From assembly GCA_016209225.1 (NCBI GenBank), contig JACQWO010000058.1:1-64000 (forward strand): a DNA stretch of 64,000 nt, read 5' to 3'. Below, piece after piece: positions 21,493 through 51,428 of the stretch. The notes under the pieces were generated by a model, which did no database searches, was not told the DNA's origin, and was given only the letters and a program-made list of their open reading frames with translations. The translations under genes were made by a program, and so were the position numbers. Every line of letters starts with the position of its first letter. The first letter of the stretch is position 1. The DNA comes from Desulfobacterales bacterium (lineage in GTDB: Bacteria; Desulfobacterota; UBA8473).

Positions 21493-22617
21493 GTGGTGCA
21501 TTCAATTGATAGTATGGAGAGGTTGAGGGATGAGTTAAACTCATTTCCTCAGAATGAATCCATAAAGAAATGGAAGAATCAGGGGAAAAAGGTAATTGGG
21601 TGGGTATGCAACTATGTCCCTGAAGAGATTATTTACGCTGCCGGTTTCCTCCCCATCAGGATTATGGGGCATGAAGGTGTCATAAGCAGAGGGGATGATT
21701 ATCTGCAAAGCAATATGTGTCCTTACATTAGGGGGTGTTTAAGCCAGGGCTTAGAAAAAAAGTATGACTTTCTGGATGGTATTATCTTTGCCCACACCTG
21801 TGATGCCGTTTGCAGACTCTTTGATAATTGGCGGATATATGTAGGGGCACCTTACTCTTACCTGCTGGACCATCCTCATAAAATTTCCGATTCTTCTCAA
21901 CAGTATCATTATCGGCAATTGGAAAAGCTAAAAAAATCTCTGGAGGATTTATCGGGTCAAGAGATTACGAACTCATCTCTGAAGGAGGCCATTGATATAT
22001 ACAATGAAAACCGCATGCTGTTAAAGCAGATCCATCGCCTTATGGCAGGAGATAATCCCCCACTATCCGGGGTGGAGGTATCTGATATCATTCGATCGAG
22101 CATGATAATGCCTAAAGATCAAAACAACTTACTCCTAAAAGGGCTTTTGGCTGAACTTGTGGCGAGAAAGAGTCCTTCCGCCCCTGGTCCCAGGTTAATG
22201 ATCAGCGGCAGCATAATGGACAATGCAGCATTTATTCGATTGGTAGAGGAGTGTGGAGCTGAGGTAGTTACCGATGATCTATGTTCAGGAACAAGGTATT
22301 TCTGGGATAGTGTCGAAAATAATCAAAACCCGCTGGCTGCTATTGGACTTCGATACCTTAATATGGTCCCCTGTGCCTGTATAGAACCCCCTTTCCCCAG
22401 ATTTGAATACGTGTTTAATATGATAGAAGAATATAGGGTTGATGGTGTAATTCTCTATGGACTCATGTTCTGTGATACCTTTCAATATGACTTCGTAGGT
22501 CAAAGGAAAAGGTTAGAGGAGAAGAATATCCCGGTATTGGAGGTTGAACTGGAACACCCATCATTGGGGTTAGGTCAGCTAAAGACAAGAATTCAGGCAT
22601 TTTTGGAGATGTTATGA
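21493..22617 (+). CDS. 2-hydroxyacyl-CoA dehydratase / benzoyl-CoA reductase family subunit (HgdB/BcrC type)
   Basis: The 374-aa protein belongs to the family of FeS subunits that receive high-energy electrons for 2-hydroxyacyl-CoA dehydration or benzoyl-CoA reduction. The three expected cluster cysteines are visible: NMCPYIRGC, FAHTCDAVC and LMFCDTFQYD. GWVCNYVPEEIIYAAGFLPIR is the family N-terminus. The start is GTG 21493 or an internal ATG seven codons later; no strong ribosome site decides. A second subunit of the same family lies at 24.86 kb. No ATP-dependent activase (HgdC/BcrAD) is in the window. The substrate cannot be told. Confidence 0.85.
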   Translation: MVHSIDSMERLRDELNSFPQNESIKKWKNQGKKVIGWVCNYVPEEIIYAAGFLPIRIMGHEGVISRGDDYLQSNMCPYIRGCLSQGLEKKYDFLDGIIFAHTCDAVCRLFDNWRIYVGAPYSYLLDHPHKISDSSQQYHYRQLEKLKKSLEDLSGQEITNSSLKEAIDIYNENRMLLKQIHRLMAGDNPPLSGVEVSDIIRSSMIMPKDQNNLLLKGLLAELVARKSPSAPGPRLMISGSIMDNAAFIRLVEECGAEVVTDDLCSGTRYFWDSVENNQNPLAAIGLRYLNMVPCACIEPPFPRFEYVFNMIEEYRVDGVILYGLMFCDTFQYDFVGQRKRLEEKNIPVLEVELEHPSLGLGQLKTRIQAFLEML

Positions 22618-23255
22618 TTATCGATCTGCATATTCATACGAAGCCGACTTCAAGGTGCAGTGATTTGGATCCGGTGGAATTGATAGAAGAGGCAAAGAGG
22701 ATAGGACTGGATGGCGTCTGTCTTACAGAACATGATAAGATCTGGGCTCTAGATGCAATCCATAAGCTGAGGGAAAAACATAACTTTTTAGTACTGGGGG
22801 GTGTAGAAGTAACCTCTATGGATGGGGATATTCTGGTCTTTGGGCTTGAGAAAGAGATTGCAGGTATTGTCTCTGTCGGGGAATTGAGAAGATTGGTAGA
22901 TGGGGTTGAAGGGGTAATGATCGCATCTCATCCTTTTCGGGGGGCATTCATAGAGGGGAAAGAGTTTTTCATACCGGGTCTGACACTGAGCGTTGAAGAA
23001 GCATGTAAAAAACCGTTCTTGAAATTTATGGACACCATCGAGTCTCTCAATGGACAAAACAGCGATCTTGAAAATGAATTCACTGTGAAGGTCTGCCAGA
23101 AGCTCAATCTGAAGGGTACCGGAGGAAGTGATGCCCATTCTCATATAGAGGTAGGACGATCTGTTACCATATTTGAAAACAGGATCGAGGATGAAAAAGA
23201 CCTTATTAGAGAACTGAAGGCAGGAAGGTTTAGTGCGGAGATGTTTCGTCAGTAA
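22614..23255 (+). CDS. PHP domain metal-dependent phosphoesterase-like protein
   Basis: The 213-aa protein has the PHP motifs: DLHIHTKPTSRCSDLDP at the N-terminus, LTEHDKIWA, an ASHPFRGA loop and the C-terminal GGSDAHSHIEVGR, which together supply the histidines and aspartates of a metal site. PHP proteins hydrolyse phosphoesters, sometimes of small molecules or nucleic acids; the target here is unknown. Its ATG overlaps the stop codon of the dehydratase-like gene (ATGATTA), so the two are translated together, which ties it to that pathway or its regulation. Confidence 0.83.
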   Translation: MIIDLHIHTKPTSRCSDLDPVELIEEAKRIGLDGVCLTEHDKIWALDAIHKLREKHNFLVLGGVEVTSMDGDILVFGLEKEIAGIVSVGELRRLVDGVEGVMIASHPFRGAFIEGKEFFIPGLTLSVEEACKKPFLKFMDTIESLNGQNSDLENEFTVKVCQKLNLKGTGGSDAHSHIEVGRSVTIFENRIEDEKDLIRELKAGRFSAEMFRQ

Positions 23256-23290
23256 AAAGGCTAATCTCAAACTCAAATGGAGGAATTGGA

Positions 23291-24760
23291 ATGGAAGAGA
23301 AATTTGAAGGGTTGGAGAGGGCATTTAATCCAAGGTCTGTCGTTGTAATTGGAGACAAAAGGCAAAACAATAATTACTCATTTCTGAGAGCACTGGCTAC
23401 CTTTTGTGGAAATGTTTATTCTGTCAATGTCGATCCGGGAGAGTTTCCTGGCATCGAAGCCCTGGGTGTTAAGAACTATACAAGCCTTTTAGATGTTCCC
23501 GATCCTATTGATTACGCCATCGTTGCTGTCCCTAGACAGATAGCCCCGATAATATTGAAGGACTGCATTCATAAAAGAGTAGGGGGAGTAAGCCTGTTTA
23601 CCTCTGGTTTTGCAGAGACCAGAACCAGGGAAGGGATGGAGCTGGCAGATACGATTACAAAGATGGCAAAAAAAGGGGGGCTCAACCTCATTGGACCTAA
23701 TTGCATGGGTATATTCAATCCCAAAATCGGTCTGAGAAATACACCGGATCAATACGCAGGAAATGGGGGTTCGGTAGGTTTTATATCACAGAGTGGAGGG
23801 CATGCGATAAACTTCAGTATAGTAGGGCACAATAATGGGATAGAGATAAGCAAACTGGTAAGTTATGGTAACGGCTATGTCCTGGACAGCACGGATTATT
23901 GTGAATATCTATTGAGAGACGAGGAGACAAAGATTATAGCCCTTTACATAGAGGGCATCAAGGATGGGAGGCGTTTCTTCAATCTGCTTAGGGAAGGAAC
24001 GAAGGTAAAACCAATCCTCATCTGGAAAGGTGGTCAGACAAGGGAAGGTTCAATGGCTACTGCTTCCCATAGTGGGTCCATGGCAGAATCGAGCCTTATG
24101 TGGGAGACAGTCATCAAACAGTGTGGTGCCATCAAAACAGACAACCTGGAAGAGTTGGTTGATACGGTTATGATGTTACTCTATGCACCTGCTGTCAAGA
24201 AGAACAGGGTTGGCCTGGTCTCTCTTAGCGGAGGACAGTGTGTCAATATGACCGATGTCTTTACGAAGCAAGACTTTACAGTCCCATTGCTCACAGAGAG
24301 ATCATACAAGGAGCTTTCTTCCATCTTTGCCATTGTGGGTGCGAGCTATAGAAATCCCATTGATCTGGGAGGAAACCTGTCACTGTCTGAAAGTACTCGC
24401 CGGGCTTTGTTGGGGAGAGATGACATCCCCAGCAGGGAAAGGCTCCTGGATATAACCCTGAATATTTTGGACAATGATGAGAATATTGATTCTGTTGTTA
24501 TTGAGATGTCTGCACATCTGATGGAATGGTTTAAAGAGGCATTCCCTGATTTTGCTGAATACTTTTACACCACGCTGGCAAATTTCAGGAAGAAGTCGGG
24601 GAAACCTATCATAGTTATTATCCCCCCTTCAAAGGTCGAGATAGGGGCAATCGAGATGAAACAAAATCTCTTAAAACATGGTATCGTCAGCTTTCCCAGC
24701 TTTTCAAGAGGGGCCGAGGCATTGGGGAAGGTAATTGGACATTACCGACAAAACCGCTAA
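23291..24760 (+). CDS. NDP-forming acyl-CoA synthetase, CoA-ligase (alpha) part
   Basis: The 489-aa product resembles the alpha part of ADP-forming acetate-CoA ligase/acyl-CoA synthetases. Residues 8-130 form the CoA-binding Rossmann domain (FNPRSVVVIGDK), followed by the ligase domains with GPNCMGIFNP, VGFISQSGGHAINF and SHSGSMAESSLMWE, where the His is the likely phosphorylation site. The ATP-grasp beta domain is absent here and not found elsewhere in the window, so a partner is needed from another locus or the protein only shares the fold. It is 35 bases downstream of the PHP gene after a GGAGG site, so part of the same operon. Confidence 0.8.
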   Translation: MEEKFEGLERAFNPRSVVVIGDKRQNNNYSFLRALATFCGNVYSVNVDPGEFPGIEALGVKNYTSLLDVPDPIDYAIVAVPRQIAPIILKDCIHKRVGGVSLFTSGFAETRTREGMELADTITKMAKKGGLNLIGPNCMGIFNPKIGLRNTPDQYAGNGGSVGFISQSGGHAINFSIVGHNNGIEISKLVSYGNGYVLDSTDYCEYLLRDEETKIIALYIEGIKDGRRFFNLLREGTKVKPILIWKGGQTREGSMATASHSGSMAESSLMWETVIKQCGAIKTDNLEELVDTVMMLLYAPAVKKNRVGLVSLSGGQCVNMTDVFTKQDFTVPLLTERSYKELSSIFAIVGASYRNPIDLGGNLSLSESTRRALLGRDDIPSRERLLDITLNILDNDENIDSVVIEMSAHLMEWFKEAFPDFAEYFYTTLANFRKKSGKPIIVIIPPSKVEIGAIEMKQNLLKHGIVSFPSFSRGAEALGKVIGHYRQNR

Positions 24761-24859
24761 AAAACAGTGAAGTAAGCTGCCCCATCCCCTTAATCCCCCA
24801 CCAGGGGAGAGGAGACGTCAAACCAGTTAATCAGGCTCATGTTTATTAAGGGAGAAGAA

Positions 24860-26089
24860 ATGAGTTCAGAAAGTTTGAGTAGCTCAAAGAAACAACTGAG
24901 GACGGCAAGGTTGGTGTGGCCCCTGGCAAAGGACTATTATGCCAAGGCAAGACAGGCTAAGATAGATAAGAAGCTGGTTGTTTGGACCATACTTATGGCA
25001 CCATTCGAGCTATTGCATGCGATGGATGTGGTTCCCATGATGACCGAACATTTCTCGTCTCTTTTGGCAATAAAACAGAAGATTGTGCCTTACCTTGAAT
25101 TAGCCGAGGGTATGGGATACACAAGGAATTCATGCTCTTTTCACAGGGCTGTAATTGGATTCGCTTTATCTGGAGAAGAATTGATGATACCAGAACCGGA
25201 TTTTTTTGTAAGCGCAACCAATGCATGTGATGGGGGTGTCAAAGTCCATATACCTGTAACAGAACGATTTGGGATTCCATATTATATTATAGATTCTCCC
25301 TATAATACCTCCGAAGGTGGGATGTCTGTTATTGAGGAAGAAAAGGTAGAATACTACAGGTACCAACTCCAGGAGTTGATCTCCATCATTGAGGAGTTGA
25401 CACACAAACCCCTTAATGAAGACAGGCTTAAGGAGACCATTGGATTTGCCAAACAGGCCAATGATCTATGGCTTGAGATAAATGAACTGCGAAAATCTGT
25501 GCCCTGCCCCATGAGTGTGGCTGAAGAGGCAACAACCATATATCCGCTGATGCAGTTGTTGGGGACCAGGGAGGCTGTTGGTTTTTATCAAATGTTATTG
25601 AATGAAGTTAAAGAACGGGTGAAGGAAGGAAAGGGGATTGTGGAGAATGAAAAGCACAGACTACTCTGGCTTGGACCTATTATTAACTATGATACAAGTC
25701 TATTGAATTACTTTGAGGAGTTCGGGGCAGTACTGGTTAAGTCAGATATGGATTACATATACCTTGGTGATCTGGACCCGGAAGACCCATTGGATAGCCT
25801 GGCGAGAAAATATGTTTCAAATTTTTTCAATGGTATTATTGAAAATCGGATCCGCATCACCAAAGAGATGGTCAGGGATTACAAGATAGATGGGATGATT
25901 ATCTATTCTCATCGTGGATGCAGGCTATTCTGTGGTGGTCAGAGGTCGGTAATGGACGCAATCTCTGAGGAGTTTGGGGTCCCTTCCCTCCTGATAGGCG
26001 GCGATCTCTCTGACGTAAGGGATTATAACAGGGATCAGGTTAGGAATCAGATAGAAAACTTCATGGACATGCTGGATAGTAAACGTTAA
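24860..26089 (+). CDS. 2-hydroxyacyl-CoA dehydratase / benzoyl-CoA reductase family subunit (HgdA/BcrB type)
   Basis: The 409-aa protein is a second member of the dehydratase/reductase family with cysteines in RNSCSFHRAVIG, SATNACDGGVK and HRGCRLFCGGQ. It presumably pairs with the 21.5-kb product to form a heterodimer. ATG 24860 is preceded by AGGGAGAAGAA; the ORF-track start at 24839 would add seven residues. Family members catalyse electron-driven dehydration of 2-hydroxyacyl-CoA or ring reduction; which one applies here cannot be settled. The order HgdB-like, PHP, acyl-CoA synthetase, HgdA-like is unusual because the two subunit genes are not adjacent. Confidence 0.85.
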   Translation: MSSESLSSSKKQLRTARLVWPLAKDYYAKARQAKIDKKLVVWTILMAPFELLHAMDVVPMMTEHFSSLLAIKQKIVPYLELAEGMGYTRNSCSFHRAVIGFALSGEELMIPEPDFFVSATNACDGGVKVHIPVTERFGIPYYIIDSPYNTSEGGMSVIEEEKVEYYRYQLQELISIIEELTHKPLNEDRLKETIGFAKQANDLWLEINELRKSVPCPMSVAEEATTIYPLMQLLGTREAVGFYQMLLNEVKERVKEGKGIVENEKHRLLWLGPIINYDTSLLNYFEEFGAVLVKSDMDYIYLGDLDPEDPLDSLARKYVSNFFNGIIENRIRITKEMVRDYKIDGMIIYSHRGCRLFCGGQRSVMDAISEEFGVPSLLIGGDLSDVRDYNRDQVRNQIENFMDMLDSKR

Positions 26090-27973: not shown

Positions 27974-28130
27974 TTGATGACGTCGTAAAAAGTCAAAAAT
28001 CAGACGGCACAGTAAAAAGCTTCAGATGCAAGGCGCGCAAATCCGAAGGAATGAGGCGTACTTACTTGTACGCTGCAATGACTGAGGATGCAGCGGAACG
28101 CCGCAGATGGACTTTTTACGAAGCCGTCAA
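27974..28130. repeat. TAAAAAGTC-ended palindromic element, copy R1
   Basis: A 157-bp imperfect palindrome from TTGATGACGTCGTAAAAAGTC-like to GACTTTTTACGAAGCCGTCA. Interior motifs are CAGATGCAAGGCGCGCAAAT, GAGGCGTACTT ... TGTACGC and AACGCCGCAGATGG. Copies R2 and R3 share ends and interior. It lies between rlpA and the HdrC-like gene and could fold as a long RNA hairpin. Confidence 0.88.
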
Positions 28131-28159: not shown

Positions 28160-28618
28160 ATGATAAGTATAAATACAGACCTTAGAAGAAAAATACTGGA
28201 AAATAATGAGGACATAAAAAAATGCTATCAGTGTTCTACCTGTAGTGCCAGTTGCCCTGTGTTAAAATATGATCCGGACTTTAACCCTCGAATCCTCATT
28301 ATAAAGGCTCTATATGGCTCGGAAGATACCCTTAAGTCAAAGGAGTTTTGGAAGTGCCTTTCCTGCGATAGGTGTAATGAAAGGTGTCCCCAGGGCGTTA
28401 ATCCATATAATGTTTTGCTTAAGCTTAAGAATTTTTTATTCTCACAAAACCTGGCGCCAAAAGAGAGGATAGATGCCAGAGAGCTAATTATAACCAGTGG
28501 CTTTTCTTATCCTATTTCATCAGCAGTAAACAGAAAAAGAGAGAGCATAGAGTTGGAGGCATTGGAGTCTATAGGTGAAGAATTAAAGAAAATAGTAGGA
28601 ACAGAGGGGGCAGAATGA
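28160..28618 (+). CDS. HdrC-like 2x[4Fe-4S] electron-transfer protein
   Basis: The 152-aa protein has two CxxCxxCxxxCP clusters: CYQCSTCSASCP near residue 20 and CLSCDRCNERCP near residue 70, then a helical tail, the layout of heterodisulfide reductase subunit C. It would pass electrons to the HdrB-like partner whose ATG overlaps its stop codon (GAATGAAG). No HdrA flavin subunit is adjacent. In sulfate reducers HdrBC-like pairs serve several complexes, so the electron donor and acceptor are undefined. Confidence 0.87.
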   Translation: MISINTDLRRKILENNEDIKKCYQCSTCSASCPVLKYDPDFNPRILIIKALYGSEDTLKSKEFWKCLSCDRCNERCPQGVNPYNVLLKLKNFLFSQNLAPKERIDARELIITSGFSYPISSAVNRKRESIELEALESIGEELKKIVGTEGAE

Positions 28619-29511
28619 AGCAATACGCTTTATTTGCGGGATGTACAATAAAAGCTGCACTTCCTCATATAGAGATGGTAGCCAGGAAGGTTTTACCCTT
28701 GCTGGATATAGAGCTTAAAGAGTTGGCATTTGCCTGCTGTCCTAATGCCGATTTCAGATCTACGGACGAGTATTCCTGGTTGGTAGTCGCTGCAAGGAAC
28801 CTTGCTTTAGCTGAAAAGGAGGGTTTAGAGATACTGAGTCTATGCCCAGGCTGTACCCAGACCCTTAAAGAGGCAAATATGATATTAAAAGATGATGACT
28901 CCTTGAGGGCAAGAATCAATAAAAGGTTGGAAAAGATCGGCCTCATATTTAAGGGAACCACAGAAGCCAATCATCATTTGGTCATTCTCCACCAGCAGAT
29001 TGACATACTTCTCCAAAGGGTTACTATACCACTTTACGGTATAAAACTGGCAGTCCATACAGGCTGTCACCTGCTCATGCCAAGTCGGATAATGCAATTT
29101 GATAGCTCCGAACAGCCAAAAAAACTGGAGGAACTTGTAAAAATGCTGGGGGGTACTATCATAGATTATCCAGAGAAAACCCTTTGTTGTGGATTTGGTT
29201 TGTTCGGCTCACATAAAGGGACCGCATCGAGGATTATTAGAGACAAAGTTGAATCTGCTTTTTTGGCTGGAGCTGAAGCCTTTGTCGTTCCATGTCCAAG
29301 CTGCTTTCAACAGCTTGACAGGAATCAATTGGTTGCAAAGAGGGAACTGAAATTTGAATATCAGCTCCCTGTATTTTATTATCTTCAGTTGGTAGGGTTG
29401 GCTATGGGATTTGACCTGGATGAAGTTGGGTACTACCATGGGAGGGTGAGATCGCCCGAATTGGAGGAGAAGATTAAATCGCTGGTGAAAAAAGCAGTGG
29501 TTAATATTTGA
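28615..29511 (+). CDS. HdrB-like CCG-domain protein
   Basis: The 298-aa protein holds two cysteine-rich CCG domains. The first reads FAGCTIKAALPH ... FACCPNAD ... LCPGCTQTL, the second HTGCHLLMPS ... TLCCGFGLFG ... VPCPSCFQQLD. In methanogen HdrB such motifs bind noncubane FeS clusters that cut disulfides; homologues in sulfate reducers act on various thiols or quinone-linked systems. It is translationally coupled with the HdrC-like gene and is followed 38 bases later by the mutase, so the three may be one operon. Confidence 0.87.
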   Translation: MKQYALFAGCTIKAALPHIEMVARKVLPLLDIELKELAFACCPNADFRSTDEYSWLVVAARNLALAEKEGLEILSLCPGCTQTLKEANMILKDDDSLRARINKRLEKIGLIFKGTTEANHHLVILHQQIDILLQRVTIPLYGIKLAVHTGCHLLMPSRIMQFDSSEQPKKLEELVKMLGGTIIDYPEKTLCCGFGLFGSHKGTASRIIRDKVESAFLAGAEAFVVPCPSCFQQLDRNQLVAKRELKFEYQLPVFYYLQLVGLAMGFDLDEVGYYHGRVRSPELEEKIKSLVKKAVVNI

Positions 29512-29549: not shown

Positions 29550-31229
29550 ATGAGTAGTAAAGAAAAAATTAAATCAACGAGGCGGTTTGATGTTTGTCCG
29601 GTTACAGAAACCTCGGCCGGCATCCCCTTAAAGGAGGTTTATGGTCCTCAGGATTTGGAGAATGTCGATTATAAGAATGAAATTGCAAATCCTGGAGAAT
29701 ATCCTTTCACAAGGGGTATCTGGAACAATATGTATCGTGGTAAATTATGGACGAGAAGGGTATTTACCGGCCTGGGTTCTACAGCGGACACTAATGCGAG
29801 GTATAAGTACTTATTGGGAAAGGGGGCCTCAGGCCTGTACTGTTTCGGGGATACCATAACCCATCAGGGGATTGATCCGGACCATCCGCTAGCCCAGGGA
29901 TATGCAGGGGTCAGTGGGGTTTCCATAGTTTGTTTGCAGGACATGTACGATCTCTTCGACGGCATATCACTGGAAGACGTGAGTGTCTCTTTCAACAATC
30001 CATGTATGGCAGCCACGGTGGTATATTCTGCCTTTGTTGCGTATGCAGAGGACATGGGATACGATCTTAAGAAGATCAGCGGCTCCATTCTGAATGAACC
30101 GATTCATCTGGTCTATAGTATGTTTGAGACCAATGCCAAGCCATTGGACCTTGCAGCAAAATTGGCCACTGATGTGATAGAGTATTCTATAAAAAATACC
30201 CCAAGATGGCACCCCATAGCCCCCAATGCTTATGACATGCATGAAAAAGGGGCCAATGCCATCCAGGAAATGGCATTTACCATTGCCATTATGGAGGAAT
30301 ATATTCAGAGGATGATAAAGAGGGGGTATGATATAGATGAATTTGCTTCCAGGGTAAATGTGTTTGGATGTGCCTGTGATATAGATTTCTTTGAGGAGAT
30401 ATGCAAATTCAGGGCTGCCAGAAGGGTGTGGGCCAAATTGATGAAAGAAAAATACGGCGCAAAGAAACCTGAATCTTGTAGACTGTACTTATCGGTTCAC
30501 ACATCAGGTAATTCTCTGACGGTGCAGCAACCAGTGAATAATGTAGCAAGGGTTACCCTGGAATCACTGGCATGTGTCCTGGGTGGTCTTCAATCCTTTG
30601 ATCCGGCAGGATACGATGAAGGCTATTATATCCTCACCGAGCATTCGGCTTTAACATCTTTGAATATCCACAACATACTTGCCTATGAATCAAGGGTGGC
30701 AAGTGTAGCCGACCCATTGGCAGGTTCCTATTTCATTGAGTCCCTCACAAACAAGATGGAAGATGAGATGTTTAAGGTCATAAATAAGATAAATGATATG
30801 GGTGGTGCTATTAAGGCTACAGAGTCAGGGTGGATCGGTTCGGAGATGGACAAAGAACTCATCAAAGAACAAAAGGAGATAGAAGAAAAGAAGAGAATTA
30901 TAGTAGGGATGAACGAGTTTATTGTTTCAAAGGAGGAAGAGGTGCCAATAGAGGTTGGCAGAGATAGGCCTCTAGAAGAACAGATGGCCACCTCCAAGAA
31001 AAGGGAAGATAAGATCAAGAAACTTAGGGAGACAAGAGATAAAAGGAAAACAAAAGATGCATTGGAAAACTTGAGGGAGGTCGCCGGTAAGGGTGAGGGA
31101 CACAATCTGGTGCCGTTAATGATGGAATCATTAAGGGCAAAAGCAACCCTGGGGGAAATATTAGGGGTGATTCGTGAAGCGAATGGTGCGAGCTACGATC
31201 CTTATAAGATTTTGCAGTACTCTCTTTAA
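29550..31229 (+). CDS. B12-dependent acyl-CoA mutase large subunit, divergent, substrate unknown
   Basis: The 559-aa product aligns along the whole catalytic (substrate-binding) part of methylmalonyl-CoA mutase: YPFTRGIWNNMYRGKLWT, DPDHPLAQGYAGVSGVSI, FRAARRVWAKLM, GNSLTVQQPVNNVARVTLE and YESRVASVADPLAGSYF. The pocket is changed. By ungapped local alignment, the positions of Tyr89, Gln197, Arg207 and His244 of the Propionibacterium enzyme are Phe72, Leu181, Met191 and Asp229. Loss of the carboxylate-binding Arg and of the catalytic His argues against methylmalonyl-CoA as substrate. The B12-binding domain is a separate gene at 31.5 kb. The C-terminal tail from about 415 is charged and helical. 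ATG 29550 follows AAAGGAG. Confidence 0.85.
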   Translation: MSSKEKIKSTRRFDVCPVTETSAGIPLKEVYGPQDLENVDYKNEIANPGEYPFTRGIWNNMYRGKLWTRRVFTGLGSTADTNARYKYLLGKGASGLYCFGDTITHQGIDPDHPLAQGYAGVSGVSIVCLQDMYDLFDGISLEDVSVSFNNPCMAATVVYSAFVAYAEDMGYDLKKISGSILNEPIHLVYSMFETNAKPLDLAAKLATDVIEYSIKNTPRWHPIAPNAYDMHEKGANAIQEMAFTIAIMEEYIQRMIKRGYDIDEFASRVNVFGCACDIDFFEEICKFRAARRVWAKLMKEKYGAKKPESCRLYLSVHTSGNSLTVQQPVNNVARVTLESLACVLGGLQSFDPAGYDEGYYILTEHSALTSLNIHNILAYESRVASVADPLAGSYFIESLTNKMEDEMFKVINKINDMGGAIKATESGWIGSEMDKELIKEQKEIEEKKRIIVGMNEFIVSKEEEVPIEVGRDRPLEEQMATSKKREDKIKKLRETRDKRKTKDALENLREVAGKGEGHNLVPLMMESLRAKATLGEILGVIREANGASYDPYKILQYSL

Positions 31230-31272
31230 TGTTAAAAAGGGGGCGAGGATTCAAGGATTCGAGGGTTCAAGT

Positions 31273-31429
31273 TTGATGGACTCATAAAAAGTCAAAACTG
31301 GGATGGCAAAGTAAAAAGCTCCAGATGCAAGGCGCGCAAATCCTGAGGAGTGAGGCGTACTTAGGGGTACGCTGCAACGACGAAGGATGCAGCGCAACGC
31401 CGCAGATGGACTTTTTGCGAAGCCATCAA
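31273..31429. repeat. TAAAAAGTC-ended palindromic element, copy R2
   Basis: A 157-bp imperfect palindrome with ends TTGATGGACTCATAAAAAGTC-like and GACTTTTTGCGAAGCCATCAA. It is almost identical inside to R3 (GGGATGGCAAAGTAAAAAGC, CTGAGGAGTGAGGCGTACTT). It separates the two mutase subunit genes. Just before it, GAGGATTCAAGGATTCGAGG repeats the motif that flanks the broken four-helix gene at 2.7 kb. Confidence 0.88.
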
Positions 31430-31475
31430 GTTTATCAACCAGATACTATCTAACTAAAAGAGGAGTAATTAAGTG

Positions 31476-31898
31476 ATGAAAGGTTCCGACAGAAAGATAA
31501 AAGTAGTAGTGGCTATGCCTGGATTGGACTGCCACGATAGAGGGATCATATATTTGAGCCATGTGCTTAAAGAAGCAGGCATGGAAGTGGTTTATCTGGG
31601 GAAGTTCAATACACCTGAATACATAGTCAATACAGCGATGGAAGAAGATGCCGATGTCATTGCCCTGAGTTACTTAAATGATCATCTGTATATGATATTT
31701 TTCCCAAGGGTTATAGAATTGCTTAAAGAGAAAGGATGCAGCGATATATGTGTAATGGCCGGAGGCAGGATCATAGAGGAAGATAGACCTAAACTTCTGG
31801 AATTGGGAATAACAGGATTCTTTGGACAGAGTACCCCTACCAAGGATATGATTCAACATATAGAAGATAGGGTAAAAAGAGAGAGGTGGAAACAATAA
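31476..31898 (+). CDS. B12-binding small subunit of acyl-CoA mutase
   Basis: The 140-aa protein is the stand-alone cobalamin-binding domain of a mutase. GLDCHDRGIIYLSHVLKEAG contains the DxHxxG motif whose histidine replaces dimethylbenzimidazole as the lower cobalt ligand; VVYLGKFNTPEYIVN and VMAGGRIIEEDRPKL are the other family segments. ATG 31476 is preferred over GTG 31473; AGAGGAG lies upstream. It should form a complex with the large subunit at 29.55 kb, from which it is separated only by a palindromic element. A mutase chaperone (MeaB) is not in the window. Confidence 0.92.
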   Translation: MKGSDRKIKVVVAMPGLDCHDRGIIYLSHVLKEAGMEVVYLGKFNTPEYIVNTAMEEDADVIALSYLNDHLYMIFFPRVIELLKEKGCSDICVMAGGRIIEEDRPKLLELGITGFFGQSTPTKDMIQHIEDRVKRERWKQ

Positions 31899-37219: not shown

Positions 37220-37448
37220 CGTTTCAATCCTCGCTCCCGCACGGGGTGCGACCTGGGATATCAAGGTGAAGATGAGGGTTCCTAGTTTCAATCCACGCTC
37301 CCGCACGGGGAGCGACAAGTGAACTGAGGGCTCTGGCGAGCGAACTCGAGGAGTTTCAATCCACGCTCCCGCACGGGGAGCGACCCATGACTGAGTCGGC
37401 CAGACATCTGATTTACGTTTCAATCCACGCTCCCGCACGGGGAGCGAC
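37220..37448 (-). CRISPR. short type I-C CRISPR array (4 repeats, 3 spacers)
   Basis: Four 32-bp repeats lie at 37220-37251, 37285-37316, 37353-37384 and 37417-37448, with spacers of 33, 36 and 32 bp. On the plus strand they read GTTTCAATCCACGCTCCCGC... ending GGGGAGCGAC; the inner ACGCTCCCGC-type palindrome is typical of I-C repeats. The three repeats nearest cas2 are identical and the farthest one (37220) has two changes (CCTCGCT, GGTGCGAC), as expected for the old, leader-distal end. Transcription should run leftward from the cas2 side. Array size is very small. Confidence 0.95.
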
Positions 37449-37633
37449 TGTATTCCTGTAACCTTTTAAAATTCAACCAATTTTTACTATATTTTTGCGG
37501 ACTACACTTTTTCGCCCGTAAAATTGTCTGCTCTTGGCTCCATAGCCTCTAAATACATTAGTAATTTAAGCATGTTATCCTCATTGCGAATCCCCCGGCA
37601 AAACTGGGTGACCTTCGGGTTCGCAGACCACTT
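37449..37633 (-). promoter_or_regulatory. CRISPR leader region
   Basis: This 185-bp A/T-rich stretch separates cas2 from the first, best conserved repeat. It has no coding frame. By position it should hold the leader where new spacers are inserted and the array promoter. A hairpin-like CGAATCCCCCGGCAAAACTG ... CCTTCGGGTTCG lies next to cas2. Confidence 0.5.
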
Positions 37634-37924: not shown

Positions 37925-37937
37925 AGCTCACTTCTCC

Positions 37938-44173: not shown

Positions 44174-45217
44174 CTAATATGTAAACGGCCACGACTTATA
44201 GTATATTTTGGTTTTGATCCAGCGTCCGTATATACCGGTAGGTTCAAAGATAAGAAAGAGGATTATTGCCAGTCCGAATGCCATTACCTTTACCTCAAAG
44301 AACCTGTCTACCAGAACAGGGTAACTAGTGCCAAATACGTCCGCTGCTATTCTTATTCCTTCAGGGAGCATGGTTACAAACATTGCCCCAAAAACAGAAC
44401 CCAGGATTGACCCCATCCCTCCGATGATGATCATGGCAAGGTAGTCTATGGATAGGGTAATGGGAAAATGTTCCGGACTGATATCCGTTATATAATAAGC
44501 ATATAAACCACCTGCCAGCCCCGCATAGAATGAACTGACAAAGAATGACGTTACCTTGTACCTTGCCAGATTTACCCCCATTACCTCAGCCGATATGTCC
44601 CTGTCCCTTATGGCGACCCAGGCTCGGCCTACCTTGGTTCTGATAAGATTTCTGGCAAAGAGCATAGCCATGACGACTATTGGCATAATCAGGAAGTAAA
44701 ATGCCCTGTCGTTATCGATTGCATGACCAAAAAACTTTGGCGACGGTACACCCATACCTGTGGAACCTCTTGTCAGACCCTCCCATTTTATTATTACATA
44801 CTGAACAATAAAACTGAATGCAAGGGTGCTCATTACCAGATAAAGCCCCTTAAGTCGGAGTGATGGTACCCCAACTATCAATCCGGAGGTTGCCGTAATC
44901 AGAGCCGCGACCGGTAGTGCAAGCCAGAAAGGGAAGCCTGCGTCAGCGGTAAGGATGGCAGTGGAGTATGCCCCTATGGCAATAAATGCCCCGTGTCCCA
45001 GAGATATCTGACCGGTAAACCCTGTTAATATATTAAGCCCCAGGGCACCAATGGTAGCTATTGCTGCCAGGTTTACAACATAGGTTAAATATGGACCTGC
45101 CCAGAATGGGAAAAAAATCATAAAGACAACAAGTCCTGCCATCCACAACTTTATCCAGATGGTCTGAAATATTGCCGTATCTGCCTTATAGCTTGTTTTG
45201 AAATCTCCACTGGTCAT
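44174..45217 (-). CDS. livM: branched-chain/organic acid ABC transporter permease LivM
   Basis: The 347-aa inner-membrane protein has eight or more helices and the family loop YLVMSTLAFSFIVQYVIIKWEGLTRGSTG followed by RDRDISAEVMGVNLARYKVTSFFVSSFYAGLAGGLYA, where it contacts the ATPase subunits, and IIGGMGSILGSVFGAMF. It is the last gene of the leftward operon paaK-livF-livG-acyl-CoA ligase-livH-livM. ATG 45217 follows AGGAGT. Substrate is set by the binding protein, which is not in this operon. Confidence 0.93.
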   Translation of the reverse strand: MTSGDFKTSYKADTAIFQTIWIKLWMAGLVVFMIFFPFWAGPYLTYVVNLAAIATIGALGLNILTGFTGQISLGHGAFIAIGAYSTAILTADAGFPFWLALPVAALITATSGLIVGVPSLRLKGLYLVMSTLAFSFIVQYVIIKWEGLTRGSTGMGVPSPKFFGHAIDNDRAFYFLIMPIVVMAMLFARNLIRTKVGRAWVAIRDRDISAEVMGVNLARYKVTSFFVSSFYAGLAGGLYAYYITDISPEHFPITLSIDYLAMIIIGGMGSILGSVFGAMFVTMLPEGIRIAADVFGTSYPVLVDRFFEVKVMAFGLAIILFLIFEPTGIYGRWIKTKIYYKSWPFTY

Positions 45218-45229
45218 CTATGAGGTACT

Positions 45230-45303
45230 CCTTTCTTTTCGTAAATCGTAAGTCGTAAATCGTGATTTTTCACTCTTCATTCTTCACTCTTCATTTTTCA
45301 CTC
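45230..45303. repeat. short tandem repeats between livH and livM
   Basis: The spacer has CGTAAATCGTAAGTCGTAAATCGTG-type units followed by CTTCATTCTTCACTCTTCAT units. These are simple direct repeats with no coding frame. Confidence 0.7.
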
Positions 45304-46203
45304 CTACACACGTTCTATCTCTTTGGTACCGAAAAGACCGTAAGGTCTTATCATCATAATCAGGAGGAGAATTATAAAAGCAGCCACCTCTTTAACCCCT
45401 CCACCGAATAGGTGATCCAGGTACCCCCCGGCCAGGTTCTCCAATACCCCTATTAGTACTCCTCCAATCATTGCGCCTGCGATACTGTCCAAGCCTCCCA
45501 TAACGGCGGCAGGTAAAGCCTTTAATCCTATAAAATAGAGATTTAGATTTAGAAGATTTATATTTGCCAGGAAGATACCGGCTATCGAAGATACCACCGT
45601 TGCTATCAACCATGACACAGCCACTACCTTCTTTACACTTATACCCATCAGGAAGGCTATATCCTGATCATCGGCCGTTGCCCTCATGCCGATACCCATC
45701 GTAGTGAATTTAAAGAACGCCAGGAATACTATCATAACTGTAATAGCCATTATCATTGCCCATAGATGTACATGGGAGACTGCTATAGTCCCAAGCATAA
45801 GCGGTTCTTCTGAAAAAGGACCTGGAAATACATAGTTTAAAGGCCCCCATATCATCCCTATTATACTTCTGAATACCGTACCCAGACCGATCGTTATCAT
45901 TACTATAGCAAGTATAGGTTCACCTATCATAGGTCTTAGGATGACGCGTTCCAGCAGGATACCCAGGATAGCTGAGAAGACGAGGGTAATCAGGAATGCC
46001 GGGATATAAGGGATCTTGTATGTAGTGATAAGGTTAAAACAGAAATAGGCCCCAAGCATCATCAACTCACCTATTGCCAGATTTAGTACATCTGTTGCCT
46101 TGTAAATGAGGACAAATCCTAAGGCAATTAAGGAATAAACACTCCCTACTGTAATCCCGCTTACTACTAATTGAGCCAGAAAATGTAACTGATCACTAAA
46201 CAT
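45304..46203 (-). CDS. livH: branched-chain/organic acid ABC transporter permease LivH
   Basis: The 299-aa permease has about eight helices, the start GITVGSVYSLIALGFVLIYKATDVLNLAIGELMMLGA and the C-terminal ALPAAVMGGLDSIAGAMIGGVLIGVLENL with the ATPase-contact region ATADDQDIAFLMGISVKKVV before it. It pairs with LivM to form the channel in the cytoplasmic membrane. ATG 46203 follows GAGGAGAG. Same operon as its neighbours. Confidence 0.94.
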   Translation of the reverse strand: MFSDQLHFLAQLVVSGITVGSVYSLIALGFVLIYKATDVLNLAIGELMMLGAYFCFNLITTYKIPYIPAFLITLVFSAILGILLERVILRPMIGEPILAIVMITIGLGTVFRSIIGMIWGPLNYVFPGPFSEEPLMLGTIAVSHVHLWAMIMAITVMIVFLAFFKFTTMGIGMRATADDQDIAFLMGISVKKVVAVSWLIATVVSSIAGIFLANINLLNLNLYFIGLKALPAAVMGGLDSIAGAMIGGVLIGVLENLAGGYLDHLFGGGVKEVAAFIILLLIMMIRPYGLFGTKEIERV

Positions 46204-46238
46204 CTCTCCTCCTCGTGTTTTTTCTTTAATTAATTTCT

Positions 46239-48053
46239 TTACACATCATGCCCTGTCTCGTGTATCTCCTCAATAATATCCCTATACATCTCACGAACAG
46301 CTGCCCTTCGTACTTTCTGTGTAGCCGTCATTTCATCCTCATCGTGATCCAGCTCTTTGGAGAGTAACGTAAACTTTTTGATCTGCCTGTCGTGGGCAAG
46401 GGTCTTATTTACCTTCCTTATCTCCTCCGCAATCAGTTCATATACTTCGGGTCTCATGGAGAGGTTTTTGAATGTAGTATAGGGTATCTTTTGATTCATT
46501 GCCCATTTACCCACATACGGGTAGTCTATCTGAACAAGAGCAGCCAGATACTCCTTGCCTTCGCCAACTACTATTGCTTCCATTATAAGCGGACTGAACT
46601 TCAGCTTATTCTCTATCTCATCAGGGGCTATCATTTTACCATCGGAAGAGATGAATATATCCTGCCTCCTGCCCAGAACGTGGAGATAGCCTTCATCATC
46701 CATGTAAACCAGGTCGTTGGTACGCATCCAACCGTCTCCTTTGGTTTCCTCTGTTGCCTTTGGGTTTTTATAATAACCCTTAAACATAGCTGGAGTTTTG
46801 CATATAAATTCCCCTTCCTCGGTTATCTTGTATTCAATACCGGGTAATACCTTACCCGCGGTTCCAATCTTAAATCCCCTTCCCTGATGGGTAGTGGCGA
46901 TGCCGATTTCGGTCATTCCATAGAGCTCTCTCAGTTTGATACCGATGGCATAAAAGAATCTGTTCATCTCCGGAGCAACGGCGGCACCGCCGGTATACAT
47001 CAACCTGGTTCTTAAGAAACCCATATGATCCTGAAGTGCCCTGAAACATAGGAGATATGCAAGGAAATTCAAAACCCTCCAGTAGAAAGGTATCTTTTCT
47101 CCTTTCTGATCAAAAGCGCATATCCTGTAACCAATGGGCATTGCAATCTTATAACACAGCCTTTTTACCCAGGTGGCATCCTGCATCTTTATCTGTATGG
47201 CAGAGGAGAGCCTTTCATATATCCTGGGAACTGCTAAAAAGAAGGTGGGTGATATCTCCCTGATATTCTGTTCTACTGTAGAAGTATCCTCAGCGAAGTT
47301 CACTGTGCATCCTATATGGACAGGTATGATCACAGACATAAGCCTTTCTATGGCATGATTCAAGGGGAGAAAGGAAAGAACAGTGTCGTTTTCATATACT
47401 GGATTTGCCTGGGTTAACCCTGACAACAGATGTTTGATAGTGCTATGTGTGTACATCACCCCTTTGGGTTTTCCGGTTGTACCCGAGGTATAGAGCATCA
47501 TATTCACGTCATCTGGGTCGATTTCATCCATCCGTTTATCAAAGAAGGAAGGATCTTTTCTGTCTAACTCCTTGCCCATCTCTAGTACATCGTAAAAGTC
47601 GATGATAAAAGGATCATTATAGTTTCGAAGCCCCTTCATGTCCATTACAATGCATTTCAAAAGATGGGGTTGTCGATCCCTGAACTCCAGGACTTTATCT
47701 GTCTGTTCCTGATCCTCTGCAACGATGAACTTGGCCTGGCAGTTGTCCACGATATACCTGACGCCTTCAGCGTAGTCGACTGAATAAATTCCTACTGTAA
47801 CGCCTCCTGCTGCCTGTATAGCTATATCAGCATAGACCCATTCTTTACAGTTCTCGCCAATAACGCATACATTGTCTCCTTTTTCAAGACCAAGGGCGAT
47901 CAATCCCAGGGCAAAGTTTCTGACATGTTCTCCATATTCTTTCCATGTTATCTCCTGCCAGATACCAAATTCCTTTTCCCTCAGTGCAACCCTTCTATCC
48001 CCATACTTTTTTACCTGCTCAAAAAACTTATGAGGAAAAGTATCCTTTGTCAT
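46239..48053 (-). CDS. AMP-forming long-chain/aryl acyl-CoA synthetase
   Basis: The 604-aa protein is an ANL-family ligase. MMLYTSGTTGKPKGVMYTH is the P-loop, ELYGMTEIGIATTHQGRG the A5 motif, GWMRTNDLVYMDDEGYLHVLGRRQDIFISSDGKMIAP the A7-A8 hinge. It resembles long-chain fatty acyl-CoA synthetases in having the large N-terminal domain. ATG 48053 follows GGAGG; the ORF-track start is nine codons longer. Placement between livG and livH suggests that the imported acid is activated at once by this enzyme; a second ligase heads the operon. Confidence 0.92.
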   Translation of the reverse strand: MTKDTFPHKFFEQVKKYGDRRVALREKEFGIWQEITWKEYGEHVRNFALGLIALGLEKGDNVCVIGENCKEWVYADIAIQAAGGVTVGIYSVDYAEGVRYIVDNCQAKFIVAEDQEQTDKVLEFRDRQPHLLKCIVMDMKGLRNYNDPFIIDFYDVLEMGKELDRKDPSFFDKRMDEIDPDDVNMMLYTSGTTGKPKGVMYTHSTIKHLLSGLTQANPVYENDTVLSFLPLNHAIERLMSVIIPVHIGCTVNFAEDTSTVEQNIREISPTFFLAVPRIYERLSSAIQIKMQDATWVKRLCYKIAMPIGYRICAFDQKGEKIPFYWRVLNFLAYLLCFRALQDHMGFLRTRLMYTGGAAVAPEMNRFFYAIGIKLRELYGMTEIGIATTHQGRGFKIGTAGKVLPGIEYKITEEGEFICKTPAMFKGYYKNPKATEETKGDGWMRTNDLVYMDDEGYLHVLGRRQDIFISSDGKMIAPDEIENKLKFSPLIMEAIVVGEGKEYLAALVQIDYPYVGKWAMNQKIPYTTFKNLSMRPEVYELIAEEIRKVNKTLAHDRQIKKFTLLSKELDHDEDEMTATQKVRRAAVREMYRDIIEEIHETGHDV

Positions 48054-48066
48054 AGAAGTCCTCCTT

Positions 48067-48879
48067 TTAATCTTCTTCAACCCGTCTGCCGACTACTAAA
48101 TCCTCTGAACCCAGATAGGCTTTAATTACCTCAGTATCTTTCTGTATCTCACCGGCAGTGCCTTCAGCTATCTTTTCTCCGAAGTCTATAGCAGCCACCC
48201 TGTCGGAAATATCCATTACTACACCCATATCATGTTCAACAATTATACAGGTTATTCCCAGTTCTTCATTTATATCCAGGATAAACCTGGCGATGTCTTC
48301 AGTCTCTTCCAGATTCATTCCTGAGACCGGCTCATCCAGTAGGATGAGCTTAGGATCCATTGCCAGTGCCCTTCCCAGTTCTACCCGTTTCTGGGTTCCA
48401 AAGGGCAGGTTTCTGACCACCTGTTTTCTTACTGCTTCCATTTCAAGGAAATCTATTATCCATTCTGCCCTTTTTCTATGTTCGATTTCCAGACGCTGTG
48501 CCTTTCCCAAATAGATACCCCCTGCTATTACACCGCAATTTATGATATGATGCCTGCCCAGCATAAGATTATCAAGAACAGTCATGTTTTTGAAGAGTTC
48601 CACATTCTGAAATGTTCGGGCGATCCCCAGCCCTGATACCTGGTGGGCTTTGAGTTTCAGGATATTATGGCCTTCAAAGGTAATCTCCCCCCTTTGGGGT
48701 GTATAAACCCTGCTTATGCAGTTGAAGACCGTTGTCTTCCCTGCACCATTAGGGCCTATAATAGAGAATATCTCCCCCTTTTTAATCCCTAAGCTCACAT
48801 TATCCAATGCCACTATCCCACCAAACCTCATAGACAGGTTTTTTATCTCTAACTGATATCCATTTGACTGCTGATGCAT
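48067..48879 (-). CDS. livG: ABC transporter ATP-binding protein LivG
   Basis: The 270-aa ATPase has Walker A GPNGAGKTTVFNCIS, the signature LPFGTQKRVELGRALAMDPKLILLDEP (LPFGT for LSGGQ, common in LivG) and the switch His in CIIVEHDMGVVMDISD. It sits on the cytoplasmic face of LivHM. ATG 48879 follows AAGGAG. Thirteen bases separate it from the ligase gene. Confidence 0.95.
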   Translation of the reverse strand: MHQQSNGYQLEIKNLSMRFGGIVALDNVSLGIKKGEIFSIIGPNGAGKTTVFNCISRVYTPQRGEITFEGHNILKLKAHQVSGLGIARTFQNVELFKNMTVLDNLMLGRHHIINCGVIAGGIYLGKAQRLEIEHRKRAEWIIDFLEMEAVRKQVVRNLPFGTQKRVELGRALAMDPKLILLDEPVSGMNLEETEDIARFILDINEELGITCIIVEHDMGVVMDISDRVAAIDFGEKIAEGTAGEIQKDTEVIKAYLGSEDLVVGRRVEED

Positions 48880-48928
48880 AACCAACTCCTTTTAAACCTT
48901 TAATATCCTTTTTTAAACCTTAACCTCA

Positions 48929-49720
48929 TTAACTCAACCACCTTTTCCTCCTCTTGTAATGCTTTACATCCTTGTAGCTCTTCTTTTGAGCATCCCCAGT
49001 CAAACCCAGGTAAAATGTCTTTACGTCTTCATTCTCTATTAATTTCTCGCTCTTGTCATCCATTACGATCTTGCCATTTTCCATAATATACCCATAGGTT
49101 GCGTGAAGGAGGGCGACGTTTGCATTCTGTTCCACAAGGAGGATACCCGTCCCTTCCTCCTGGTTAATACGCATAATAACGTTGAATATCTCTTTAACAA
49201 CCAGTGGAGCCAACCCGAGAGAGGGTTCATCCAGCATCATAAGTTTAGGCTTCGACATCATGCCCCTGCCAATAGCCAGCATCTGCTGTTCCCCTCCACT
49301 GAGATAACCAGCCAGTTGATTTTTTCTCTCTTTCAGGAGGGGGAATAAATCCATCACGAAATCGTAGTCTCTATTTATATTTTTGTCTTTACGGGTAAAT
49401 GCGCCTACTCTAATGTTTTCATCAACTGTAAGATCATCGAATACCCTTCTCCCCTCAGGAACCTGGCATATCCCCATCTTGACTACCTGTTCAGGACTTT
49501 TTTCATTTAATCTTACCCCGTTGAATTCTATAGATCCATCCTCTATCTCCCCATCCTGAGACTTTAGGATACCTGATATTGCTTTAAGGGTAGTACTCTT
49601 TCCAGCACCGTTAGACCCTAAGAGGGCAACGATAGCCGTATCCGGGACTTCAAAAGAAATGCCCCTCACAGCTGCGATGACATCATTGTAAACAACCTCA
49701 ACATTGTTTAAGGTCAACAT
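48929..49720 (-). CDS. livF: ABC transporter ATP-binding protein LivF
   Basis: The 263-aa ATPase has Walker A GSNGAGKSTTLKAISG, the signature LSGGEQQMLAIGRGMMSKPKLMMLDEPSLGLAP, and a C-terminus extended by about 25 residues (LTGDAQKKSYKDVKHYKRRKRW) beyond the usual LivF end. It pairs with LivG. ATG 49720 lies 9 bases after a GGGGGG run. The 421-bp gap to the paaK-like gene upstream may hold a separate promoter. Confidence 0.94.
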   Translation of the reverse strand: MLTLNNVEVVYNDVIAAVRGISFEVPDTAIVALLGSNGAGKSTTLKAISGILKSQDGEIEDGSIEFNGVRLNEKSPEQVVKMGICQVPEGRRVFDDLTVDENIRVGAFTRKDKNINRDYDFVMDLFPLLKERKNQLAGYLSGGEQQMLAIGRGMMSKPKLMMLDEPSLGLAPLVVKEIFNVIMRINQEEGTGILLVEQNANVALLHATYGYIMENGKIVMDDKSEKLIENEDVKTFYLGLTGDAQKKSYKDVKHYKRRKRWLS

Positions 49721-50141
49721 AAGATTTTAATTCCCCCCTTCTAAAATCCTTATTTTCTCCCTTTAACAGGAGACATATAATACATTTGTTAAAATTTACT
49801 CTTGATTATGAAAAAACGTATTATAAAGTAAAGATGAAAGTAATGTAGTGCTTGTTAAAGATAAAAGAGATAGTCTCTCAAAGCCCTCAAATTGATTGAG
49901 TTCAGAGCAGCTTCTTCAGATGTACAGGAGATAGGGTGATTGGACAGTAGACAGGATGTTAGAAGTGTAAAAACAAGATCAGCGCTCAATTGAAAAGGTC
50001 TACCCCATCTTTTTAATTTTGACTAGGTAACGACGCAACAGCACAACAGAACCTTTCGGCTTTAAAAATAAAAAGGTCTGTTTAACTAATATAAAAACAT
50101 GTGATATGTCAAGAAGAATCTTAATCCCAAAAAACCTTTTC
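49721..50141. other. intergenic region between livF and the PaaK-like gene
   Basis: No gene with a ribosome site is seen. On the minus strand TATAAT occurs about 90 bases before livF, but no convincing -35 box is at the proper distance. Short stretches near 49.95-50.05 kb are repeat-like (GACAGTAGACAGG; CGACGCAACAGCACAACAG). Confidence 0.35.
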
Positions 50142-51428
50142 TTAAACCTTCCTTCTATCGTCCACCAGTGGGGCATCTTCAGGGAGTGTCCCTTTTTTAA
50201 CCAATTCAAGCTGGGGGGTTACACGAATGGCAACTTTTAAATCATTTACCAATCTTTCTTTTATACCTTCTAAGTTAAGGGGTTCTTTGTATTCAATCTT
50301 TATAGTAAGTTCATCGCGAAGCTTTGGTCTTTCTACAATTATTTGATATTTACCCAATTCCGGATAATTATCGAGGACGTTGTCTATCTGTCTGGGAGAA
50401 ATAAACATCCCCTTTATTCTTGGTATATCTCCCACACGGCCTAAGATTCGTTTTAGCCTCGGTGTAGTCCTACCACAGGAACATGGCTCCAGATTTAAAC
50501 CTTCAGTAATATCCCCTGTCCTATAGCGGATAATAGGCATAGCCTTTCTGCTAAAGTCACAGCCGCATATCTCCCCACTTTCTCCCCAGGTTACAGACTG
50601 TCCTGTCTGAGGGTCCAATATCTCTACAAGGACATCTGGATCAAGGTGCATGCCACCGCCTTCTGGGCACTCAGCGGCAACTATCCCAAGGTCTGCTGTA
50701 CCATACAGTTCCCGGACCTTTGCCCCAAATGTTTCTCCTAATGCCTTTTTGCCAGCTTCTGTCCTCACTTCACCAAAGACTTGGACAAGCCTGATAGAGA
50801 GGTCTTTATTTGGATCAAGCCCCATCTCCATTGCTGTCTCTGCCAGCTGTTGACAGAAAGTGGGAAATCCAAAAAGGATAGTGCAGTTGGTCAGCTTCAT
50901 CACTTCTATATGTGTTCTGGTCATGCCAACCCCCCCCGGAAGTACTGCAGTACCAGCCCTTTTCATAGCATCATCCAGGAGTTTACCTGCAATTACCCAA
51001 TTATAGTTAACTGTACAGTCCACTATATCGTCTTTGCGGGCACCCATGGTGAAGAGCGCTCTCGCTGCACCCTCCACTACGTAAACCCAATCTTCCTGTG
51101 TAAATGGATAGATGATTGGGCCAGGGGCGTAAAACAGCTGGTTGAGTTCCTCTGGGTCGACTGCTAATAAGTCTCCAAAGGGTGGATTTTGAGCTTGAAT
51201 TTCCATTATTTTGGACTTTGAGATGAAAGGTATGCCCTTTTGATAGTCCTCAAAGGACTTAATATCCTCTGGTTTCACTCCAGCCTCGTTAAAACTCTTC
51301 TTGTAATAAGGAGAGTTTTTATAAGCGTATTTTAACTGTTTCTTTGCTCTATCTAATTGATGCTCTTTCAATCTTTCCTGAGGCATGGTTTCCAGTTCTT
51401 TGCTCCAATATTTATTCTTCCCTGCCAT
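50142..51428 (-). CDS. phenylacetate-CoA ligase (PaaK)-like protein with altered P-loop
   Basis: The 428-aa protein is of PaaK length and shows PaaK features: YYKKSFNEAGVKPEDIKSFEDYQKGIPFISK, LPGGVGMTRTHIEVMKLTNCTILFGFPTF, VRELYGTADLGIVAAECPEGGGMHL, PIIRYRTGDITEG, CGRTTPRLKRILGRVGDIPRIKG and the final Lys segment KKGTLPED. The usual SSGTTGKPT phosphate loop near residue 95 is instead YAPGPIIYPFT, lacking the Ser/Thr-Gly pattern. It may still bind AMP-acyl intermediates or may be a subfamily with another acyl donor. It heads the leftward transporter cluster. Confidence 0.85.
   Translation of the reverse strand: MAGKNKYWSKELETMPQERLKEHQLDRAKKQLKYAYKNSPYYKKSFNEAGVKPEDIKSFEDYQKGIPFISKSKIMEIQAQNPPFGDLLAVDPEELNQLFYAPGPIIYPFTQEDWVYVVEGAARALFTMGARKDDIVDCTVNYNWVIAGKLLDDAMKRAGTAVLPGGVGMTRTHIEVMKLTNCTILFGFPTFCQQLAETAMEMGLDPNKDLSIRLVQVFGEVRTEAGKKALGETFGAKVRELYGTADLGIVAAECPEGGGMHLDPDVLVEILDPQTGQSVTWGESGEICGCDFSRKAMPIIRYRTGDITEGLNLEPCSCGRTTPRLKRILGRVGDIPRIKGMFISPRQIDNVLDNYPELGKYQIIVERPKLRDELTIKIEYKEPLNLEGIKERLVNDLKVAIRVTPQLELVKKGTLPEDAPLVDDRRKV

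Follow-up and report, generated by a model that had tools for sequence, protein, structure and literature searches.

We lean toward reading the gene pair at positions 29,550 to 31,898 of the window (the whole 64,000-nucleotide stretch of Desulfobacterales DNA analyzed here) as an active two-subunit adenosylcobalamin (AdoCbl)-dependent acyl-CoA mutase belonging to a separate Asp244 clade, which would act on a hydrophobic mono-acyl-CoA, use Asp229 and/or His317 in place of the His244 of methylmalonyl-CoA mutase (MCM), and feed beta-oxidation. The sequence-based case for a mutase draws on the fold, the intact B12 subunit, Tyr243 and Glu370, a clade with 100/96 support, coordinated substitutions, dN/dS ratios, and beta-oxidation contexts, and points to activity, reaction direction, substrate class, and the parts played by Asp229 and His317 as predictions.

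As a first-pass annotation of this DNA had proposed, the pair combines the mutase fold with the DxHxxG cobalamin motif, and its profile match, barrel fold, and motif-bearing partner place it in the MM_CoA_mutase superfamily (PF01642). The large subunit (559 aa; 29550..31229, forward strand) scored 517 bits over the whole PF01642 profile, and the B12-binding small subunit (141 aa, GTG start; 31473..31898, forward strand) matched PF02310 (67 bits) and TIGR00640 (105.6 bits), with the cobalamin motif intact (G-L-D-C-H-D-R-G). An AlphaFold2 model of the large subunit (pLDDT 87.5, 38-row alignment) was closest among solved folds to 2-hydroxyisobutyryl-CoA mutase (HCM; HcmA/HcmB, PDB 4r3u; Foldseek TM 0.90), with MCM next (range 0.82–0.90 for MCM and HCM). 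HCM has the same two-subunit architecture and is also the best sequence match (36% identity). The subunit genes are separated by 243 bp (31230..31472), a length that varies among orthologues. This spacer contains a copy (31328–31348) of a dispersed intergenic repeat, CAAGGCGCGCAAATCCTGAGG, which also occurs at 28029 and 41351 (three matches versus 0.01 expected) and on several other contigs within the genus.

His244 is the textbook residue easing the radical 1,2-shift in the MCM family, and in MCM structures it contacts the carbonyl, Tyr89 and Arg207 contacting the carboxylate. Its mutation in MCM is reportedly strongly damaging, so an Asp at this position might mean altered chemistry. An H244A mutant of MCM is listed as PDB 1e1c. 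In the window enzyme, Tyr243-His244 correspond to Tyr228-Asp229 (codons 30231..30236, forward strand, as for all codons below) within the motif N-A-Y-D-M-H-E-K-G. Asp229 was already matched to His244 in the first pass, and the match is secure because no gap interrupts this motif when the protein is aligned by phmmer with solved MCM and HCM ('SGYHxxEAG' versus 'NAYDMHEKG'). The alignment is equally secure for Leu181 in place of Gln197 (30090..30092), as had been claimed, and for Phe72 in place of Tyr89 (29763..29765), although the idea that the latter change is unusual was rejected, since Phe occupies position 89 in 41 of 103 His-type enzymes. Met191 had been named as the counterpart of Arg207, but Phe192 is the alternative placement (codons 30120..30125); which of the two applies depends on one extra residue that the window protein has at around 184–192, where model confidence is low (block 191–200, pLDDT 66); neither placement gives an Arg or Gln.

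The earlier observation was right and understated, as the pocket also shows His328 replaced by Ser315 and Gln330 by His317 (Ser315-Val316-His317, codons 30492..30500), Asn366 by Ala353 (30606..30608), and Ala116 (Asp117 in HCM) by Phe99 (29844..29846). A histidine has been gained at a shifted barrel position, 330, whereas Arg207 has no counterpart. Of the shifted His and Arg that the first pass named as evidence against its own reading, one half is thus seen, and the catalytic histidine may have moved rather than vanished. In the model, Asp229 lies at a helix start directly after barrel strand 220–224 and His317 within strand 314–318, so that they follow each other along the barrel as positions 244 and 330 should. 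The two residues may meet at the thioester carbonyl.

The MCM signature (Tyr89 and Arg207 as carboxylate anchor, with His244) is not present in the window enzyme (Phe72, Met191/Phe192, Asp229), which shares the fold, cobalamin motif, Tyr243, and Glu370 with MCM from P. shermanii and human but is without Tyr89, Arg207, Gln197, His244, His328, and Gln330. That of isobutyryl-CoA mutase (ICM; Phe89 and Gln207, with His244) is incomplete, with Phe72 present and Gln207 and His244 absent. ICM and the pivalyl-CoA-binding IcmF resemble the window enzyme in Phe at position 89 and in the hydrophobic acyl site and carboxylate-free substrate predicted for it, whereas ICM-type sequences (Phe89/Gln207, e.g., C91) retain Gln207, Gln197, and His244, and IcmF is a fusion protein of distant similarity (154 bits). 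Nor was the HCM signature (Ile90 and Asp117, with His244) found; in MCM numbering, HCM has Ile90, Asp117, Gln197, Gln207, His244, His328, and Gln330, versus Phe72, Phe99, Leu181, Met191/Phe192, Asp229, Ser315, and His317 in the window enzyme. Ethylmalonyl-CoA mutase/MeaA belongs to the same family, and a suspected MeaA-like paralogue (C66c, L013), which has both His244 and Arg207, falls among the His enzymes in the tree. The features that define the Asp244 clade (Asp244 and His330, without His328 or Arg/Gln207) are all present, as Asp229, His317, Ser315, and Met191/Phe192.

These differences recur across a comparison set of 157 sequences (<90% identity), 36 with Asp and 103 with His at position 244, in which relatedness was limited solely by the identity threshold, so that the counts do not represent independent events. 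Arg or Gln at position 207 occurs in 102/103 His enzymes versus 0/36 Asp enzymes, where the residue is aromatic in 26. His328 is nearly confined to the His group (100/103 versus 2/36), with Gly, Ala, or Ser in 33 of the Asp enzymes, while position 330 is Gln in 100/103 His enzymes and His in 33/36 Asp enzymes (versus 1/103). Cys366 (29/36 versus 3/103) and Ile or Phe at position 116 (31/36 versus 0/103, with Ala or Asp in 100/103 His enzymes) follow the same division. All 103 His-type sequences keep both His244 and Gln197, consistent with the prior statement that known mutases retain the histidine, and Gln197 persists in 23/36 Asp enzymes. It is lost in the window enzyme and its nearest kin, so this subclade may differ from the majority of its clade. 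Tyr243 and Glu370 are retained in all 36 Asp enzymes, Glu370 being invariant in both groups and Tyr243 present in all sequences except one. Judged by these alignments, the active site is a coordinated rebuild and not a single odd residue. With His244 replaced and matching changes at positions 328, 330, 366, 207, and 116, the clade offers a natural experiment on radical control and substrate range.

The same substitutions could instead reflect a different AdoCbl reaction, as also raised in the first pass, in which a heteroatom group is eliminated or migrates and the thioester does not undergo a 1,2-shift. With His244, His328, and Arg/Gln207 lost together and His330 and Cys366 gained, most polar contacts of the classical reaction are gone; moreover, 2-hydroxyacyl-CoA dehydratase-like genes lie near the mutase in the window and at locus L075. 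We regard this as distinctly improbable, given that conservation extends to the whole fold, Tyr243, Glu370, and the partner subunit, and that the beta-oxidation modules in which the clade's genes lie (see below) suit a skeletal shift.

Under the favored reading as an acyl-CoA mutase, the small subunit would bind AdoCbl as in MCM, homolysis would yield a 5'-deoxyadenosyl radical that takes a hydrogen atom from the acyl chain within the large-subunit barrel, and the CoA-thioester group would migrate between adjacent carbons, as expected from fold and family. The second anchor (Arg/Gln207 and Tyr89) and the Ala116 site have become hydrophobic (Phe192/Met191, Phe72, and Phe99, together with Leu181), which makes a hydrophobic acyl group (branched, alicyclic, or aryl) lacking a second carboxylate the most likely one. 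The new substrate suggested in the first pass is likely. Asp229 and/or His317 would provide the hydrogen bond to, or partial protonation of, the thioester carbonyl in place of His244, and the product would enter beta-oxidation after removal of a blocking branch point. To our knowledge, IaaGH is the single mutase precedent for bulky hydrophobic (aryl or alicyclic) acyl-CoAs; rearrangement of a bulky aryl acyl-CoA is one kind of reaction suspected for the window enzyme, a likeness drawn from description. More tentatively, it is possible that an undescribed AdoCbl mutase clade polarizes the thioester carbonyl with a relocated Asp229-His317 pair instead of His244 and rearranges such acyl-CoAs in degradation pathways that are anaerobic or, in some cases, aerobic. 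A single substrate assignment would open a set of pathways in uncultured sulfate-reducer-like genomes and could yield new catalysts for branched or aromatic acyl-CoAs.

A careful IQ-TREE analysis of 60 sequences placed the window enzyme in a 23-row clade (20 Asp, 3 Asn/Ser; support 100/96), apart from MCM, ICM-like enzymes, HCM, and the suspected MeaA-like protein, and a quick tree of 91 rows agreed. The HCM clade is separate from that of the window enzyme. The divergent mutase subclass that had been proposed therefore holds up, albeit as a broad clade and not a single divergent enzyme. Within it, all 5 rows of the window's subclade (support 100/100) so far come from the window's own family. 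Strong Asp-type matches (≥583 bits) beyond this family were found in 11 genomes from 8 families among 395 sampled genomes of the phylum, and MAGs of Rokubacteria and Nitrospirae supplied further named relatives. An Asp-type mutase is also encoded on a plasmid of Paraburkholderia sp. PGU19, a cultured strain; this enzyme fell inside the clade in the quick tree and was left out of the final tree as its branch was too long. When 369 genomes sampled from the class to which a gammaproteobacterial MAG belongs were searched, none of the 11 strongest matches was an Asp-type enzyme, and no recognizable IaaG turned up in these genomes or in the searched plasmids; checked matches from an HCM-query scan of the phylum were all His-type MCM/ICM-like. 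A search of the open-access literature found no description of the clade, which is apparently uncharacterized, a judgment that takes IaaG and the Desulfosarcina cetonica/Desulfococcus biacutus mutase from their published descriptions.

The window's own genome encodes 17 mutase large subunits (one split) in 3.1 Mb, an unusual radiation of the family, and matches to the window protein (E ≤1e-60) number 11–23 per genome within the family and 0–7 elsewhere. An N-x-Y-D motif is common to five paralogues in this genome and to homologues in at least 8 other families of the phylum. Two further paralogues (C5a and C63) have Tyr-Asp but retain His328, are without His330, and fall outside the 23-row clade, so Asp244 may have more than one origin. 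In several other mutases of this genome (G000, loci L009–L014), position 244 is Val (C2, C87a), Tyr (C5b), or Asn (C66a). Elsewhere, Ala244-type mutases (Tyr-Ala-His; L063:9593-11296 and L070:5809-7512) are encoded beside Asp-type ones, a single B12 subunit gene separating the two.

Orthologues of the large subunit are 97–99% identical in 4 other species of the genus and 85–91% identical in 3 genomes from 2 other genera of the family, with dN/dS ratios of 0.032–0.048 (strong selection). Pocket residues are identical in the orthologues of the 4 other genus species and nearly so across the rest of the family; such conservation, with the low dN/dS, puts the pocket composition beyond chance. It also bears on whether the protein is a paralogue that has lost catalysis or plays a structural part, as the degenerate small subunit does in heterodimeric MCM, which loss of His244 and other catalytic positions in a genome with 17 paralogues might suggest through decay. 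Set against dN/dS of 0.03–0.05, an adjoining intact cobalamin-binding partner gene, motif conservation across phyla, and MeaB chaperone genes at several loci, this explanation is very unlikely.

The mutase lies in a genome with a sulfate-reducer gene set (dsr-type sulfite reductase and sat; 95 contigs), and in the window no beta-oxidation operon surrounds it, the nearest genes being those for Hdr-like proteins and sat. The iron-sulfur proteins encoded immediately upstream (28160..29511, forward strand), one HdrC-like and one HdrB-like, are syntenic in 4/5 genus members, in the order (CoaE)-RlpA-HdrC-HdrB-mutase-B12 subunit-sat. G004 differs in that its Hdr genes have moved away (L054), and the mutase there is near an acyl-CoA ligase, an ECH, and a FabK/nitronate-monooxygenase-like gene, while one orthologue in G006 sits amid several ECHs, a CaiB-type transferase, and a fumarylacetoacetate-hydrolase-like gene. 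Possible pathway partners, by analogy, include two HGD-D (2-hydroxyacyl-CoA dehydratase/benzoyl-CoA-reductase-like) subunits, between which lie a PHP protein and the alpha subunit of an ADP-forming CoA ligase (21493..26089, forward strand). A block of LivM, LivH, an AMP-dependent acyl-CoA ligase, LivG, LivF, and a PaaK-like ligase (44174..51428, reverse strand) possibly serves uptake and activation, as a similar Liv-ligase block adjoins the Asp-type mutase in L189; the window's ligase and transporter genes are 13–20 kb from the mutase, however, and a pathway link drawn by analogy over that distance counts against the mutase reading. The genome has 14 HGD-D matches. No PFL-like glycyl radical enzyme was found in it, which makes an alkylsuccinate (fumarate-addition) mutase role unlikely, and no BamA above cut-off, on which ground the classical benzoyl-CoA pathway was rejected. 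Elsewhere in the window (37220–39426), cas4-cas1-cas2 accompany a 4-copy array of a 33-nt repeat (spacing 64–68), with no effector genes recognized among the neighboring ORFs.

Across the clade, gene neighborhoods were compared within an 8 kb radius for 30 Asp-type and 64 His-type loci with enough flanking sequence. Methylmalonyl-CoA epimerase, found at 12/64 His-type loci, was never within 8 kb of the Asp-type enzymes (0/30), a difference from MCM (p = 0.008, one of several uncorrected tests on loci from related genomes that are not independent). Asp-type loci were enriched in LivH (4/30 versus 0/64), LivG (6/30 versus 1/64), SDR (8/30 versus 3/64), and AMP ligase (4/30 versus 0/64), as well as LivM, a phytoene-dehydrogenase-like oxidoreductase, and TetR. 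Among the clearest operons (L189, L075, L019/L068/L204, and L123/L195), that of L189 reads Liv transporter-ligase-B12 subunit-mutase-ACAD-ECH-ACAD-SDR-ECH and that of L019/L204 SDR-mutase-ECH-ACAD-thiolase. The PGU19 plasmid operon (ACAD-ACAD-ECH-mutase-B12-MeaB-SDR) is surrounded by DUF1302/DUF1329, MMPL, and ring-hydroxylating dioxygenase genes. At L075 there are, in addition, a 2-hydroxyacid dehydrogenase, an indolepyruvate ferredoxin oxidoreductase, and two HGD-D genes whose window homologs lie at 21493 and 24839, neighbors that point to 2-hydroxy- or aryl-acid metabolism. In L076 and L078, the order TetR, Asp-type mutase, B12 subunit, MeaB continues with another mutase, this one of His type, as though one rearrangement led on to the next.

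Some of these gene orders also bear on whether the clade already has a measured activity, either as the 2-hydroxyisobutyryl-CoA mutase of acetone degradation in sulfate reducers (D. biacutus, D. cetonica) or as IaaGH. D. cetonica tags 105214–105217 encode SDR-MeaB-small-large (PMC7888143), the order seen around Asp-type L195 and PGU19; HGD-D proteins are acetone-induced in that organism, which we counted toward identity with the acetone HCM, and IaaGH, a phenylsuccinyl-/benzylmalonyl-CoA mutase, is an accepted aromatic mutase of the MCM family (PMC8360864). Nonetheless, we consider a known activity unlikely. Characterized HCMs (PM1 and A. tertiaricarbonis; Py2 by motif) carry His244 and Asp117, both absent from the window enzyme, and no TDP lyase was found within ~10 kb of the examined Asp-type mutases. 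The acetone route was set aside as unlikely on the grounds that TDP enzyme homologs do not adjoin Asp-type mutases and that the TDP-mutase clusters found in the phylum (L267, L270) are of Asn244 type; 12 further TDP-homolog regions yielded no mutase.

Two other mutase arrangements were observed. On a Shinella plasmid (L154:7878-9578), an HCM-like mutase with Asp at HCM position 117 lies beside an aminotransferase, MeaB, ECH, and a ligase. In G272 (L267:13225-19016 and L268:509-2853, with parts in L269 and L270), GntR, an Asn244-type mutase (Tyr-Asn, 586 aa), a B12 subunit, a PaaK-like ligase, a TDP-dependent lyase, and an HGD-D-like pair form a cluster that perhaps represents a ketone or 2-hydroxyacid activation pathway.
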